Program-made: the position numbers and the translations under genes | The notes under the pieces: model-generated | Databases searched by the model: none | Told to the model about the DNA's origin: nothing | Seen by the model: the letters and a program-made list of their open reading frames with translations, nothing else | Assembly: GCF_016765655.2 (NCBI RefSeq) | Contig: NZ_CP086106.1 | Coordinates: forward strand, 1,610,501 to 1,674,500 | DNA: 64,000 bases | Source of the DNA: Skermanella mucosa | GTDB lineage: Bacteria; Pseudomonadota; Alphaproteobacteria; Azospirillales; Azospirillaceae | Reading direction: 5' to 3' | In this document: one piece after another, positions 50,656-55,758 of the stretch | Position numbering within the stretch: position 1 is the first letter of the stretch | How the letters are laid out: each line of letters starts with the position of its first letter

Positions 50656-50907
50656 GGACTCGCACTTATACCCGGCCAATTCGCCGTCCGGCACCCGGAG
50701 TATCGGCCCTGCCAGCGGCCCGACGGACGAAAGTGGCGCGCGAGCCCTGGTCGGCATAGCTTGACAGCGTATCGGCCGTGTTCTTTATCGGACACGCGCC
50801 GTCGAAACAACCATCCGATGCCGGGCCGGCCAAATTGCCGCCGGGACAAAAGGCCCCATCAGGCCCCATACGCTCAAACATGAGGGCGATAACCCATGAG
50901 GGTAGAC

Positions 50908-52410
50908 ATGAAATTCACGTTCTCCGATCTCACCCCGTCGCTGCCCGCATCCGGCTCGCTCGTCCTGCCCGTCCTGGCCGAACGCACGCTGACGCCCGCC
51001 GGCACCGACCTGGACGGGAAGACCGGCGGCATGCTGACCCGCGCCATGGCCGCCAACAAGTTCTCCGGCAAGACTGACGAGGTCCTGACCATCGTGGCGC
51101 CCGCTGGCGTCGACCTCGACCACATCGTCCTGATCGGCCTCGGCAAGCCCGAGCAGGTCACCGACCTCATCCTGCAGGACGCCGGTGGCGCCATTGTGGC
51201 GACCCTGGGGAAAAACGCGGCCGAGGTGTCGGTCGTGGTGGAGCAGGCGCCGGGCGTAGCGCTGGAGCCTTCGGCGATGGCGGCGGAAATCGCCTTCGGG
51301 GCGCTGCTGCGCTCCTACCGGTTCGACAAGTACCGCACGAAGGAAAAGCCGGAGGCCAAGCCGGCACTGCAAGCGGTCAACCTCCTGACCAAGGGCCCGG
51401 ACGCCGCGGAGAAGCTGTTCGCCGACCGCCAAGCGGTCGCATCCGGCGTCTTCCTGACCCGCGACGTGATCTCCGAGCCGGCCAACATCCTTTATCCCCG
51501 CACGCTGGCCGACCGCTGCCTCGAACTGTCCGAACTGGGCGTCGAGGTCGAGGTGCTCGACCAGGGGCAGATGGAGAAGCTCGGCATGGGCGCCCTGCTC
51601 GGCGTGGCGCAGGGCAGCGTGCGGGAGCCGTACCTGGTCGTCATGAAGTATGACGGCGCCCCGGACGCCGCGGACAAGCGGCCGGTCGCCTTCGTCGGCA
51701 AGGGCGTCACCTTCGACACCGGTGGCATCTCCATCAAGCCCGCGGCCGGGATGGAGGACATGAAGTGGGACATGGGCGGCGCCGGCGTGGTCCTGGGCCT
51801 GATGAAGGCGCTGGCCGGCCGCAAGGCCAAGGTCAACGCGGTCGGCGTGGTGGGACTGGTCGAGAACATGCCGTCGGGCAGTGCCCAGCGGCCCGGCGAC
51901 ATCGTGACCAGCCTGTCCGGCCAGACCATCGAGGTGCTGAACACCGACGCCGAGGGCCGGCTGGTCCTGGCCGACGCGCTGTGGTTCACGCAGGACACCT
52001 TCAAGCCCCGGGCCATGGTCAACCTGGCGACCCTGACGGGGGCCGTCATCGTGGCCCTGGGGACCGAGCACGCCGGGTTGTTCTCGAACGACGACGCCTT
52101 GTCGGAGCAGCTGACCGCCGCGGGCCGCAAGGTCGGCGAGAAGCTCTGGCGCATGCCGATGAACGAGGCCTACGACAAGGCGATCAACTCCGACGCCGCC
52201 GACGTCAAGAACATCGCGGGCAGCCGCGACGCCGGCAGCATCATCGGCGCGCAGTTCCTGCAGCGCTTCGTCAACAACGTGCCCTGGGCGCACCTGGATA
52301 TCGCCGGCGTGACCTGGTCGAAGAAGGACGCCGGAACGATCCCCAAGGGCGCCACGTCCTTCGGCGTTCGCCTGCTCGACCGCTACGTCGCGGACGTGTA
52401 CGAGGGCTGA
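50908..52410 (+). CDS. pepA: Leucyl aminopeptidase PepA
   Basis: 500 residues from the ATG at 50908 (GAGGG upstream); an ATG at 50896 would add four. M17 family: metal site GKGVTFDTGGISIKP, the signature NTDAEGRL with metal and catalytic residues, MVNLATLTGAVIVALG. Cleaves N-terminal amino acids and in E. coli also binds DNA in Xer recombination. The last codons carry a GAGGG that can serve the next gene's start. Confidence 0.96.
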   Translation: MKFTFSDLTPSLPASGSLVLPVLAERTLTPAGTDLDGKTGGMLTRAMAANKFSGKTDEVLTIVAPAGVDLDHIVLIGLGKPEQVTDLILQDAGGAIVATLGKNAAEVSVVVEQAPGVALEPSAMAAEIAFGALLRSYRFDKYRTKEKPEAKPALQAVNLLTKGPDAAEKLFADRQAVASGVFLTRDVISEPANILYPRTLADRCLELSELGVEVEVLDQGQMEKLGMGALLGVAQGSVREPYLVVMKYDGAPDAADKRPVAFVGKGVTFDTGGISIKPAAGMEDMKWDMGGAGVVLGLMKALAGRKAKVNAVGVVGLVENMPSGSAQRPGDIVTSLSGQTIEVLNTDAEGRLVLADALWFTQDTFKPRAMVNLATLTGAVIVALGTEHAGLFSNDDALSEQLTAAGRKVGEKLWRMPMNEAYDKAINSDAADVKNIAGSRDAGSIIGAQFLQRFVNNVPWAHLDIAGVTWSKKDAGTIPKGATSFGVRLLDRYVADVYEG

Positions 52411-52414
52411 TCGG

Positions 52415-53248
52415 ATGAGGGGCGCGCGGGAACCGGCTTTTTCGCGCGCCCGAGCGGATCATGTCGCCGCCACGGAGTCCCAGGGAGCGCCGACCGGCGT
52501 GCGCTGGCGCCTGTTCGGCGACACCCGCCCGCCGCTGACCGCCACCTTCTTCCTGGGTGACCTTGCGCGCCGTGCCGCGATCGGCCATGCCGGCCGGATG
52601 CTCGGGGCCGACCGCGTGCCCCCGGTCATCAGCGGCCACGGCATCGACCGCGACCCGCGCCACCGCCATGCCTTCTTCCTGCCGGAGGACGCCGATGGCG
52701 ACGGCGTGCTGGACCATGTCCTGATCACCGCGTCGGCGGGTTTCGGCCGCGAAGCGGTGGACTCCCTGGCGACCCACGGCAGGCTGTTCGACGGCCGGAA
52801 CGGCGAATGGGCGGTTCGGTGCGTCTGGCTGGGCGAAGCGGAACGGGCGCCGTCCCGGCTGGCCGGACCCTCGGCCTGTTGGGAATCGGTGACGCCTCAT
52901 GTGCCGCCCTGGCATGTCCGCCGCGGCCTCACGAACGCCGACCAGATCCGCCGCGAGTTACACCGGCGTGGCCTTCCGGCGCCGCGATGCCTGGAACAGG
53001 TCCCGGGGCCGCTCCGACGCGACGATGCGCCTGTGCGGCCGGAGGACTTCGTTCCACGGTTCGGCCGCAGAACCTTTGCCCATGGCTCCGCCCACCCCGA
53101 AACCACCGCGGCGTTCTGGCGCCTGACTTTTCCAGAGCCGATCGCCGGGCCGCTTGCGATCGGTTGGGGCTGTCATTTCGGGCTGGGTCTGTTCAGCCCT
53201 TCGTCGGCCTTGGAAACCCTGGCTGACGAAGGACCGGGACCGTCCTGA
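52415..53248 (+). CDS. Orphan Csb2-like protein (Cas6-like half of the type I-U/I-G Cas5-Cas6 fusion)
   Basis: 277 residues. Several blocks match the C-terminal half of Csb2 (GSU0054 family): RPPLT (38-42), SGHGIDRDPRHRHAFFLPED (73-92) followed by ADGDGVLDHVL, WESVTPHVPPWH (156-167), ELHRRGLP (181-188), and FPEPIAGPLAIG-WGCHFGLGLF (239-260), the last being a Gly-rich RAMP/Cas6-type loop. The N-terminal Cas5 part of a full Csb2 (450 or more residues) is absent. GAGGG at the end of pepA lies 8 bases before the ATG, so translation is probably coupled. No CRISPR array, cas3, cas7, cas8 or cas1/2 is in the window. Function is inferred only: a possible RNA-binding or RNA-cleaving protein. The family match is from memory. 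Confidence 0.7.
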   Translation: MRGAREPAFSRARADHVAATESQGAPTGVRWRLFGDTRPPLTATFFLGDLARRAAIGHAGRMLGADRVPPVISGHGIDRDPRHRHAFFLPEDADGDGVLDHVLITASAGFGREAVDSLATHGRLFDGRNGEWAVRCVWLGEAERAPSRLAGPSACWESVTPHVPPWHVRRGLTNADQIRRELHRRGLPAPRCLEQVPGPLRRDDAPVRPEDFVPRFGRRTFAHGSAHPETTAAFWRLTFPEPIAGPLAIGWGCHFGLGLFSPSSALETLADEGPGPS

Positions 53249-53330
53249 CGCCGCCGATTGTCCTTTCGGGACCCGTCCCGCTACGATGCCGTGGAGAGCA
53301 AGCCTGCCCGTCAGCATCCTGGATCGAACC

Positions 53331-53780
53331 ATGACCGAAATCCGCTTCTATCATCTCCAGCGCAAGACGCTGGAGGACGCGCTGCCGCAGATCCTGGAAA
53401 AGACCCTGGAGCGCGGCTGGCGGGCCGTCGTCATGGCCGGATCGGAGGAACGGGTCGAGGCCCTGGCCCAGCACCTGTGGACCTACAAGGATTTCGGGTT
53501 CCTGCCCCACGGCAGCGCCCGCGACGGCGACGCGGAGCACCAGCCGGTCTGGCTGACCACCGAGGACGAGAACCCCAACGGCGCCACGGTCCTGATCCTG
53601 ACCGACGGCGGGGTTTCCGACCGGCTCGACGGATTCACCCTGGTCTGCGAGATGTTCGACGGTAACGATTACGACGCCGTGCAGGCCGCCCGGAGCCGAT
53701 GGAAGCAGTACAAGGCCGATGGCCACGCGCTGACCTACTGGCAGCAGACCGATCGCGGAGGCTGGGAAAAGAAGGCTTGA
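53331..53780 (+). CDS. holC: DNA polymerase III chi subunit
   Basis: 149 residues from MTEIRFYHLQRKTLEDALPQ at 53331. GWRAVVMAGSEERVEALAQHLW, FLPHG and VWLTTEDENPNGATVLIL are chi-family marks. Chi links the clamp loader to single-stranded DNA-binding protein. In many alphaproteobacteria holC follows pepA directly; here the Csb2-like gene separates them. The end overlaps no other gene; the next gene is convergent. Confidence 0.93.
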   Translation: MTEIRFYHLQRKTLEDALPQILEKTLERGWRAVVMAGSEERVEALAQHLWTYKDFGFLPHGSARDGDAEHQPVWLTTEDENPNGATVLILTDGGVSDRLDGFTLVCEMFDGNDYDAVQAARSRWKQYKADGHALTYWQQTDRGGWEKKA

Positions 53781-53793
53781 GGCCGCGACGGGC

Positions 53794-55758
53794 TCAATCC
53801 ACCGCGACGGCCCGCTTCAACGGGTTCTCGCCCGGCGGCCAGATGCCGCGCTCGACGGCCTCGCGGCCCTGGAAGACCAGATAGCTCTGGCGGCCATAGT
53901 GGGGCAGGGGGCGAAGCAGCGCCTCGAGCGCCGCGCGGTCGTCCGCCGCCACGACCAGGGCCGGTGAACCGCTCTCCAGGCGTTCGGTCCAGACCCGCGC
54001 CGTTCCCTTGCCCGCCAGCCTGTCGGGGACCGGCCCCAGCCCGAGGCGGGCCAAGGCTTCGTATACCTGCGTCGTCATGCCGATCACCGCGACCGGCGCT
54101 CCGGCGCGGGGCTCGCCCGCCGCGGCTCCCGCATCCATGAGGCGGGAAGCCAGGGCGCGCCCGAGGTCCTGGTGAGGGCCGGCCAGCACCAGGCGGGTGG
54201 CGGGATTGAGGGTGACGTCGCGCAGGATCGGCGCCGCCTCTCCCGGGGCCAGGCGGCGGAACAGCCGGTAATCCGGATCGACGGCGACGCCCAGCGGCGG
54301 CGCGTCGAGTTCGATCGTCCCGGTGGCCTCGCTCCCGGCCAGCGGAATGGTACGCCGGAGCTGTCCTTCCGCCGTCTCGACGACCACCGGCACCTCCAGC
54401 CGGTAAGCCGGCTCGCCCTGGCCGACCCGGACATCAAGCCGGTAGCGTTCGCCGGTCCGAGTCGCCGCCGCCTCCATCAGGCGGAGCGCCGGGGCGCCGG
54501 TCCGCGACACCCACTGGTCGAAGAATTCCGCCAGATCGCGGCCCGACGCCGCCTCGAACGCGGCGCGCAGATCGCCCCAGCCCGCCCGCCGGAAGCGGTG
54601 CCGCTCCCAGATCAGCCGGATGCCTCGGTCGAACGCCTCGTCCCCCAGCATGTCCCGCAGCATCAGGAACAGGTAGGCCGACTTGTTGTAGCCCACGATC
54701 TTCGCGGCGCCATGGACACGCGACGTGAAATCGGCGAGCGCACCGTCCCGATCTTCGGGCAGGGCCGCGTAGTCGCGCAGCCAGCCGAACCGCATCTCCC
54801 GCGCGGCCCCGGGATCGCGCGCGGCGGTGAGGCCGTAGTCGGCCATGTAGGTCGTCAGCCCCTCGGACCAGTTGCCGGAGGCATAGTCGACCAGCACGCC
54901 GTTGCCCCACCAGTTGTGCAGGATCTCGTGGGGCAGCGACTGGCCGCGCATAAAGGGCAGCGGTAGCACCTGTCGCCCGACATAGGTCAGGCCGGCGAAT
55001 CCCAGCCCCACCGGCAGGGGAGCCGAGAGGATCGAGAAGCCGGAAAAGGGATAGGTCCCGATCCGCTCGGAAAAATGCGCGATGTAGGTTTCCGAAGCCT
55101 GCAGATAGTCGTCGGACAGGTGTTCCAGGTCGGGCTCGAACAGGGTCCTCAGCCGCAACCCGCCGGCCATGCGCTCCCGTACCTGCCAGCGGCCGGCGAA
55201 CAGCGACGGCTCCTCCACCGCGGGATCGGCGGTGAAGACCGTTTCCCCATCCGTCTCCTCCGCAAGGTCGCCGGTCACGGCGGCGCGGTAGCCTTCGGGG
55301 ACCCGCACCGCCAGCCGGTAGGCCGTGCGCTCCGCGTCGAACCGGGGAAGCCATCCCGTCCCTCCCGGCAGGAAGCTTCCCGTTTCGCCCGATCCCGGCT
55401 CCTCGCCGCCGAACGGGCTGCCGCTGTCGTCGAGCGGCGCCAGGATGCCGGAATAGCGGATCGTCACCCGCATGTCGCCCGCACCGGCCGCCGGAACGCG
55501 CCACCGCGTCGGGCCGCCGGCGATGTCGGCCGGGCGGCCGTCGATCTCGACGCGGACGGGCGAAAACCTCGGCGACAAGTGGAACTCCAAGGGGCCGCCG
55601 CCGGTCACCGTCACCCGGTCGGTCACTTCAAGCCGGCGCTCAGCCGGGTCGAGGTGTATGGCGGCGTCGTGGGTCACCCGGGAGGCGGGAGCGGCGAGGC
55701 ACGGCGGGGCGAAGGTCAACCAGAGTAAGGCGCCGATGGCGGCCAGGCCGCCCTTCAT
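53794..55758 (-). CDS. M1 family metallopeptidase, exported
   Basis: 654 residues from MKGGLAAIGALLWLTFAPPC at 55758, a signal peptide with cleavage near LAAPA. Zinc site HEILH within LPHEILHNWWGN, and the third ligand Glu in NWSEGLTTYMADYG, 18 residues further on. The N-terminal beta domain (VTHDAAIHLDPAERRLEVTD) and C-terminal beta-rich part complete an M1-like fold. Unlike typical aminopeptidase N it lacks a clear GAMEN exopeptidase motif. Probable periplasmic or outer-membrane peptidase, substrate unknown. It is 19 bases after the CYTH-CHAD gene. Confidence 0.85.
   Translation of the reverse strand: MKGGLAAIGALLWLTFAPPCLAAPASRVTHDAAIHLDPAERRLEVTDRVTVTGGGPLEFHLSPRFSPVRVEIDGRPADIAGGPTRWRVPAAGAGDMRVTIRYSGILAPLDDSGSPFGGEEPGSGETGSFLPGGTGWLPRFDAERTAYRLAVRVPEGYRAAVTGDLAEETDGETVFTADPAVEEPSLFAGRWQVRERMAGGLRLRTLFEPDLEHLSDDYLQASETYIAHFSERIGTYPFSGFSILSAPLPVGLGFAGLTYVGRQVLPLPFMRGQSLPHEILHNWWGNGVLVDYASGNWSEGLTTYMADYGLTAARDPGAAREMRFGWLRDYAALPEDRDGALADFTSRVHGAAKIVGYNKSAYLFLMLRDMLGDEAFDRGIRLIWERHRFRRAGWGDLRAAFEAASGRDLAEFFDQWVSRTGAPALRLMEAAATRTGERYRLDVRVGQGEPAYRLEVPVVVETAEGQLRRTIPLAGSEATGTIELDAPPLGVAVDPDYRLFRRLAPGEAAPILRDVTLNPATRLVLAGPHQDLGRALASRLMDAGAAAGEPRAGAPVAVIGMTTQVYEALARLGLGPVPDRLAGKGTARVWTERLESGSPALVVAADDRAALEALLRPLPHYGRQSYLVFQGREAVERGIWPPGENPLKRAVAVD

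Follow-up and report, generated by a model that had tools for sequence, protein, structure and literature searches.

A 277-codon open reading frame with an ATG start (52415..53248, + strand), found in the genome of Skermanella mucosa, would encode a complete free-standing Cas6-type endoribonuclease of the lineage that forms the C-terminal half of Csb2, and about 83 kb away the same chromosome carries CRISPR arrays with a type I-G-like repeat. In our judgement it is rather probable that the product is a trans-acting, stand-alone Cas6 that acts, or acted until recently, on these orphan arrays, whose effector has been lost or goes unrecognised. Coordinates are those of the window, the 64,000-nt stretch of DNA analysed here, unless a G or L label is given; G000 is the genome of S. 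mucosa itself and G002 that of its sister species. The frame follows an open reading frame of 504 amino acids that is presumably pepA (leucyl aminopeptidase; 50896..52410, + strand), the pepA stop being separated from the ATG by 4 nt, and 82 nt lie between its end and the open reading frame that we take to be holC (DNA polymerase III chi; 53331..53780, + strand), both names coming from an earlier, sequence-only reading of the stretch. HolC was matched in 54 of the 59 genomes searched. The order at the locus is pepA-cas6-holC, and the gene does not lie in a type I-G operon.

Homology to the Cas6-like half of Csb2, as proposed in the sequence-only reading, is borne out by profile searches. TIGR02165 matched with an E-value of 7.1e-24 and 84.8 bits, above its cut-off of 45, and the PADLOC Cas56g model at 2.1e-49, while Pfam PF09609 (Cas_GSU0054) gave 13.9 bits only, under its cut-off of 21. 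The Cas5-like N-terminal half is absent, as that reading had also claimed: residues 28-262 align with positions 251-491 of the 492 of TIGR02165, and the frame begins just 28 residues ahead of the Cas6 domain. This domain (residues 29-262; 52499..53200, + strand), delimited by the range of homology and by constraint, contains the HRHAFFLPEDADGDGVLDH block (residues 83-101; 52661..52717, + strand), where strictly invariant columns are kept, and, from the alignment, a C-terminal Gly-rich RAMP loop block (residues 245-262; 53147..53200, + strand). The latter includes GWGCHFGLGLF, which has the Gly-rich loop and the conserved histidine of the Cas6 superfamily; this putative catalytic residue, His254 (codon 53174..53176, + strand, in GCHFGLGLF), is invariant across the 22-row alignment. 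The window protein keeps all 27 columns that are invariant in the other 20 full rows, a reference from which the partial row L039 was left out. At columns conserved in at least 90% it keeps 40 of 46, with three of the six misses in the RFRxxRGLxQPD segment; most fused rows keep more, missing 0 to 4 in leave-one-out counts (for L034 the figure is 9 of 46, for the stand-alone L035 8 of 45), and this shortfall counts against the reading that we favour.

The predicted structure points in the same direction as the profiles. An AlphaFold2 model built on the 22-row alignment (pLDDT 86.1, pTM 0.83; pLDDT of 55 for residues 1-10 and 58 for residues 11-20) gave six Foldseek matches in the PDB with E < 0.001, all of them Cas6 (best E 1.2e-4). 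In VIA-align the top rows for the model were Cas6 proteins or Cascade chains, the best being 8fcu_B of a type I-B CAST Cascade (Z 10.9, rmsd 3.9 over 188 residues), with the Cas6 entry 6fjw at Z 10.7 (rmsd 3.7 over 184 residues). The model thus has the appearance of the double-ferredoxin RAMP fold of the Cas6 superfamily. Structure comparison suggests that Cas6b, Cse3/Cas6e, Pyrococcus Cas6 and Csf5, from types I, III and IV, are alike in this fold, whereas sequence identity to Cas6 proteins of other types is just 7-16% in the VIA-align rows. A PDB sequence search with the single window protein returned no match, and one with a profile gave two weak rows only (E 0.34 and 1.4), taken as chance.

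Csb2 of T. sulfidiphilus provides the biochemical reference. According to PMC9638904, its catalytic residue is H503, cleavage falls 4 nt 3′ of the base of the hairpin and gives an 8-nt 5′ handle, and its isolated C-terminal domain cleaves repeat RNA but alone does not assemble Cascade. The window protein belongs to a family homologous to that C-terminal, Cas6 domain, with an order of blocks common to the relatives aligned here, and it has a putative catalytic histidine near the C-terminus; His254 would, judging from position, be the equivalent of H503. They differ in that the window gene is naturally stand-alone, with no adjacent csb1, cas3 or cas8. PMC3150331 describes GSU0054 as a fusion of Cas5 with Cas6, and the Cas6 of Pyrococcus as stand-alone, and PMC8866350 uses 'standalone' and 'solo' for Cas6 in general. 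The passages of PMC10333696 on mycobacteria describe orphan arrays and Csb2 loci, and in them no stand-alone gene of the window's kind. A search of the literature covering few subscription journals returned no paper on a stand-alone Csb2-type Cas6.

The distribution of the domain indicates where the gene came from. Profile searches matched 17 of 82 family genomes, those of the window and its sister included, as well as 14 of 385 class genomes and 6 of 398 phylum genomes, the window's included; in these two wider surveys short or contig-edge rows may hide further stand-alones. At 20 of the 21 genomic loci the domain ends a longer frame (L027 at a contig edge), L035 being stand-alone. The nearest relative found is a gene of 240 amino acids in genome G122 (L112:11434-12153), also without a Cas5 half and 49% identical to the window protein over its full length (118/239). 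It belongs to an operon in the order Cas4g/Cas1g, Cas2, array, Csb1, full Csb2, Cas3g, Cas3-extension/Cas8g, stand-alone gene and second array; its neighbours are thus cas8g and an array, in an I-G locus that looks complete, whereas the window copy is alone. In a 36-row tree these two proteins are joined with a support of 100/96, and with two further stand-alones, an orphan of genome G013 and a gene of a Marinosulfonomonas MAG, they form a group at 89/82, under the starred threshold. The Marinosulfonomonas gene starts about 470 bp past the last repeat of a 12-copy array and has cas1 and a gene for a CARF protein nearby. A fifth short gene (G034, by eye near a Cas4-like frame) groups elsewhere, with the third domains of three-domain Csb2 proteins.

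Because the window gene groups with stand-alone relatives, it seems never to have had a Cas5 half: contrary to what had been supposed from the sequence, it is probably no csb2 shorn of that part, and it probably derives from a type I-G locus in which a gene of this sort accompanied a full csb2. Truncation of an ordinary fused csb2 would agree with the identity of the curated profiles that match, all Csb2/Cas56g or Cas5g models hit at their C-terminal halves, and with the lack of firm support for the four-gene clade; the tight pairing with the G122 gene, which coexists with a full csb2, speaks against truncation and makes it very improbable.

Several observations were made on relatives along the way. 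The G013 gene (L113:868-1635), another orphan in the stand-alone lineage, is divergent from ilvD; by eye it has lost the HxHAFFLP histidines and kept the C-terminal one. In G122, also by eye, the Cas6 half of the full csb2 (L112:6210-7664) is without the HAFFLPEDxDxDG block that the stand-alone largely keeps, and a division of labour between the two is possible. Csb2-like frames of about 700-760 amino acids, in which a degenerate Cas6-like domain is followed by a second, occur in G006 (L115:4732-6978), L006, L007, L009, L120 and L141; by eye the first domain of the G006 frame has a Trp at the would-be catalytic His position. Next to the I-G locus of G122, at L112:13258-17320, a frame that by eye resembles an RT-Cas1 fusion is flanked by arrays of a different repeat, GTTTCAATCCGCTCCCGAACGCGGA.

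Carriage by phages or plasmids was considered and discarded. The window protein had no tblastn match (E 1e-5) among 50,697 phage and 72,556 plasmid records, nor did the G122 gene among the plasmids at E 0.01, nor the DNA of window positions 52400-53340 among plasmids, and none of 127 pattern stretches in viral contigs was confirmed as a relative. Rfam gave nothing up to E 1 for window positions 50800-54000.

The 64-kb window itself yielded no CRISPR array, in agreement with the earlier claim. A de novo scan of 100 stretches amounting to 1.97 of the 7.84 Mb of the genome, about a quarter of it and mostly the smaller replicons plus part of the chromosome, revealed outside the window, downstream of the gene, two arrays at G000:C1 ~1,746,418-1,748,400 (L158:11918-13900). 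They comprise 9 and 13 full repeats, 22 in all, of CTCTCCCGGGCAGAAATGCCTGGGCCTCATTGAAAC or close variants, each array being preceded by a 250-bp leader, and the two leaders are 96% identical. This repeat is of the I-G type: it is identical to the I-G repeat of G122 at 30 of 36 positions, six differing, and upon folding both form the same 8-bp hairpin followed by a 12-nt 3′ tail. Such a stem and tail fit the published Csb2 cut, 4 nt beyond the stem and then an 8-nt handle. The repeat beside the Marinosulfonomonas stand-alone folds into a less clean hairpin, and because of this difference recognition may vary within the stand-alone lineage. Rows L173, L226, L231 and L239 of the same scan consist of alike or regular units, which suggests coding or tandem repeats, and were dismissed.

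Of the 20 spacers separating adjacent full repeats, one has a match in the capsid gene of Caulobacter phage Seuss (38 nt, 89.5%, E 1e-3), and none matches the own or sister stretches examined. Among the proteins encoded next to the arrays, three examined with PADLOC and six with Pfam showed no cas family; L158:14502-15416 weakly matches the phage-defence candidate model PDC-M24B (E 8e-5) and L158:9663-10442 weakly matches a terminase small subunit. At the syntenic position both G002 and G001 lack the block of about 5 kb that contains the arrays; its two ends carry short stretches resembling each other, a hint of recombination. Between the arrays, 38 nt (L158:12622-12659) share 94.7% identity with an unannotated site in a Skermanella rosea plasmid (NZ_CP086112.1:9650-9687). 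Two megaplasmids of Azospirillum thermophilum (NZ_CP029357.1 ~303149 and NZ_CP029358.1 ~328250) match the array query and have no cas gene annotated within 9 kb in the PLSDB gene tables, which are incomplete; they perhaps carry more orphan arrays.

In the model that we favour, the protein most likely binds the 8-bp hairpin of the I-G-type repeats and most likely cuts 4 nt 3′ of the stem by means of His254. By the Csb2 rule, the products would most likely be crRNAs with the 8-nt handle AUUGAAAC. Enzyme and arrays would then be what is left of a lost I-G system, or else serve a partner that goes unrecognised.

The remaining parts of such a system were searched for in the whole of G000. Profiles for Cas1, Csb1 and Csm1 found no match, TIGR02165 matched nothing besides the window gene, and no Cas3g exceeded the cut-off, the best reaching 46 bits versus 400, with sub-cut-off matches of this kind present also in 14 of 14 control genomes. 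G000 therefore presents an array with an I-G-type repeat and not the set of csb1/cas7g, csb2 and cas3g. When the Cas proteins of G122 were compared with the stretches of G000 examined, the window gene was the sole match; the G122 repeat, with as many as 3 mismatches allowed, had no hit in G000-G004 or in G013, the S. mucosa repeat differing from it at more positions than that. In the sister genome, the stretch L116 (G002:C1:2870000-2881000) resembles by eye a type I-E cas operon, with a weak Cas1 match (E 3.4e-5). On the scale of the genome, then, the notion of a gene without a CRISPR system holds as far as a cas operon with any of the five families searched is concerned, and fails for the arrays. 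The absence of an effector or adaptation gene among those five families counts against our favoured reading. We consider it unlikely, and only a little short of improbable, that the system is a dispersed, effector-less CRISPR in which a stand-alone Cas6, maintained by selection at a housekeeping locus, makes crRNAs in trans from the distant leader-linked arrays for an effector or a regulatory partner beyond the current cas profiles.

The sequence-only reading had proposed a domesticated RNA-binding or RNA-processing protein with a non-CRISPR target, and the position between housekeeping genes, the failure to find a CRISPR effector and the second orphan beside ilvD, in a genome with no Csb1 match though with Cas1 elsewhere, would all be compatible with this. 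However, since I-G-type arrays lie in the same genome, a non-CRISPR role is not the simplest reading; their repeat fits the enzyme, the copy of the sister species is broken, and the two orphans occupy different places in two genera. Domestication is in our view improbable, and a purely non-CRISPR role, possible as it is, is no longer needed to explain the gene.

The same reading had called the gene stable, and a comparison of the pepA-holC neighbourhood with four other genomes of the genus (G001-G004) contradicts it. In G001, G003 and G004 pepA is followed by holC without the insert, and in the sister G002 the insert is present but broken: the start codon is lost, an in-frame deletion has occurred between two copies of the 11-bp repeat CCTTCTTCCTG (in the window, left copy 52545..52555 and right copy 52671..52681, + strand), and a second deletion shifts the frame. 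As both G000 and G002 have the insert, the gene predates their split and would have been in the pepA-holC gap before the two species separated; as the G002 copy is broken, the gene is dispensable there, which again counts against the favoured reading. So does the age of the array block, which appears younger than the cas6 insert or was lost twice, so that the two may not have arrived together. Synonymous divergence between G000 and G002 is 0.16 for the shared Cas6 codons, 0.17 for pepA and 0.25 for holC.

Over 79 shared codons of the Cas6 domain the two species differ by 5 nonsynonymous and 9 synonymous changes (dN/dS 0.19), which departs from neutral simulation with P 0.002-0.008 (kappa 1, 2 and 4) and shows past purifying selection on the domain, from only 14 changes in all. 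Outside it, codons 4-28 (4 nonsynonymous, 2 synonymous) and the tail 263-277 (9 nonsynonymous, 6 synonymous) do not differ from neutral expectation. The count leaves out codons 247-248 as well as 86-87 and 135-140, which lie at junctions; the differences in these codons include A86T, where the window keeps the family majority, V137D, W138R and L247V. Two of the five counted changes, D96E and W132R, replace family-conserved residues in G002, S261R is a departure of the window from the family majority, and the other two cannot be polarised. The intact frame, earlier taken as an argument against decay, carries little weight, since a GC-rich frame of this kind remains stop-free in 12-25% of its neutral simulations under substitutions alone, with indels left out.

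These data bear on the account according to which the gene and the arrays are functionless relics of a lost CRISPR system, the window copy being merely not yet broken. It draws on the broken sister copy, the three genus members without the insert, the five cas families unmatched in the genome and the fraction of neutral frames that stay open; it is opposed by the constraint on the Cas6 domain, by the uneven fall of the polarised changes (two at family-conserved residues in the sister, one a departure of the window from the family majority) and by the retention of every strictly invariant column. That constraint may date from the time before a CRISPR system was lost. We regard the relic account as a serious, if doubtful, possibility, and continue to prefer a trans-acting Cas6 that serves or recently served the arrays.

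The start of the protein deserves separate consideration. A 13-bp RNA hairpin (52420..52451, + strand; -37 kcal/mol for 75 nt, z -2.2) follows pepA and spans the region just past ATG 52415, overlapping codons that look neutral. A hairpin sequence is present in the sister too, and hairpin-like sequences also follow pepA in the relatives without the insert, both by eye. Codons 1-28 (52415..52498, + strand) show almost no homology in relatives and low pLDDT. Because of the hairpin and of the first ~25 codons, which have almost no counterpart, it is uncertain that ATG 52415 is the native start; GTG 52499, which is GTA in the sister, is a possible alternative. Translational coupling to pepA, previously proposed, becomes doubtful because codons 4-28 look neutral and overlap the strong hairpin.

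For the family, the data outline a lineage of detached Csb2-type Cas6 proteins: two are orphans, one neighbours an array together with cas1 and a CARF gene, and one shares a full I-G operon with a csb2. The existence of this lineage suggests that type I-G crRNA processing is separable from Cascade assembly, a separation compatible with the published experiment on the isolated domain. The case also calls for caution, since a cas-like gene without a nearby cas operon does not imply a CRISPR-free genome. In S. mucosa, the window gene and the arrays constitute a testable case of crRNA processing in trans without a recognised effector.
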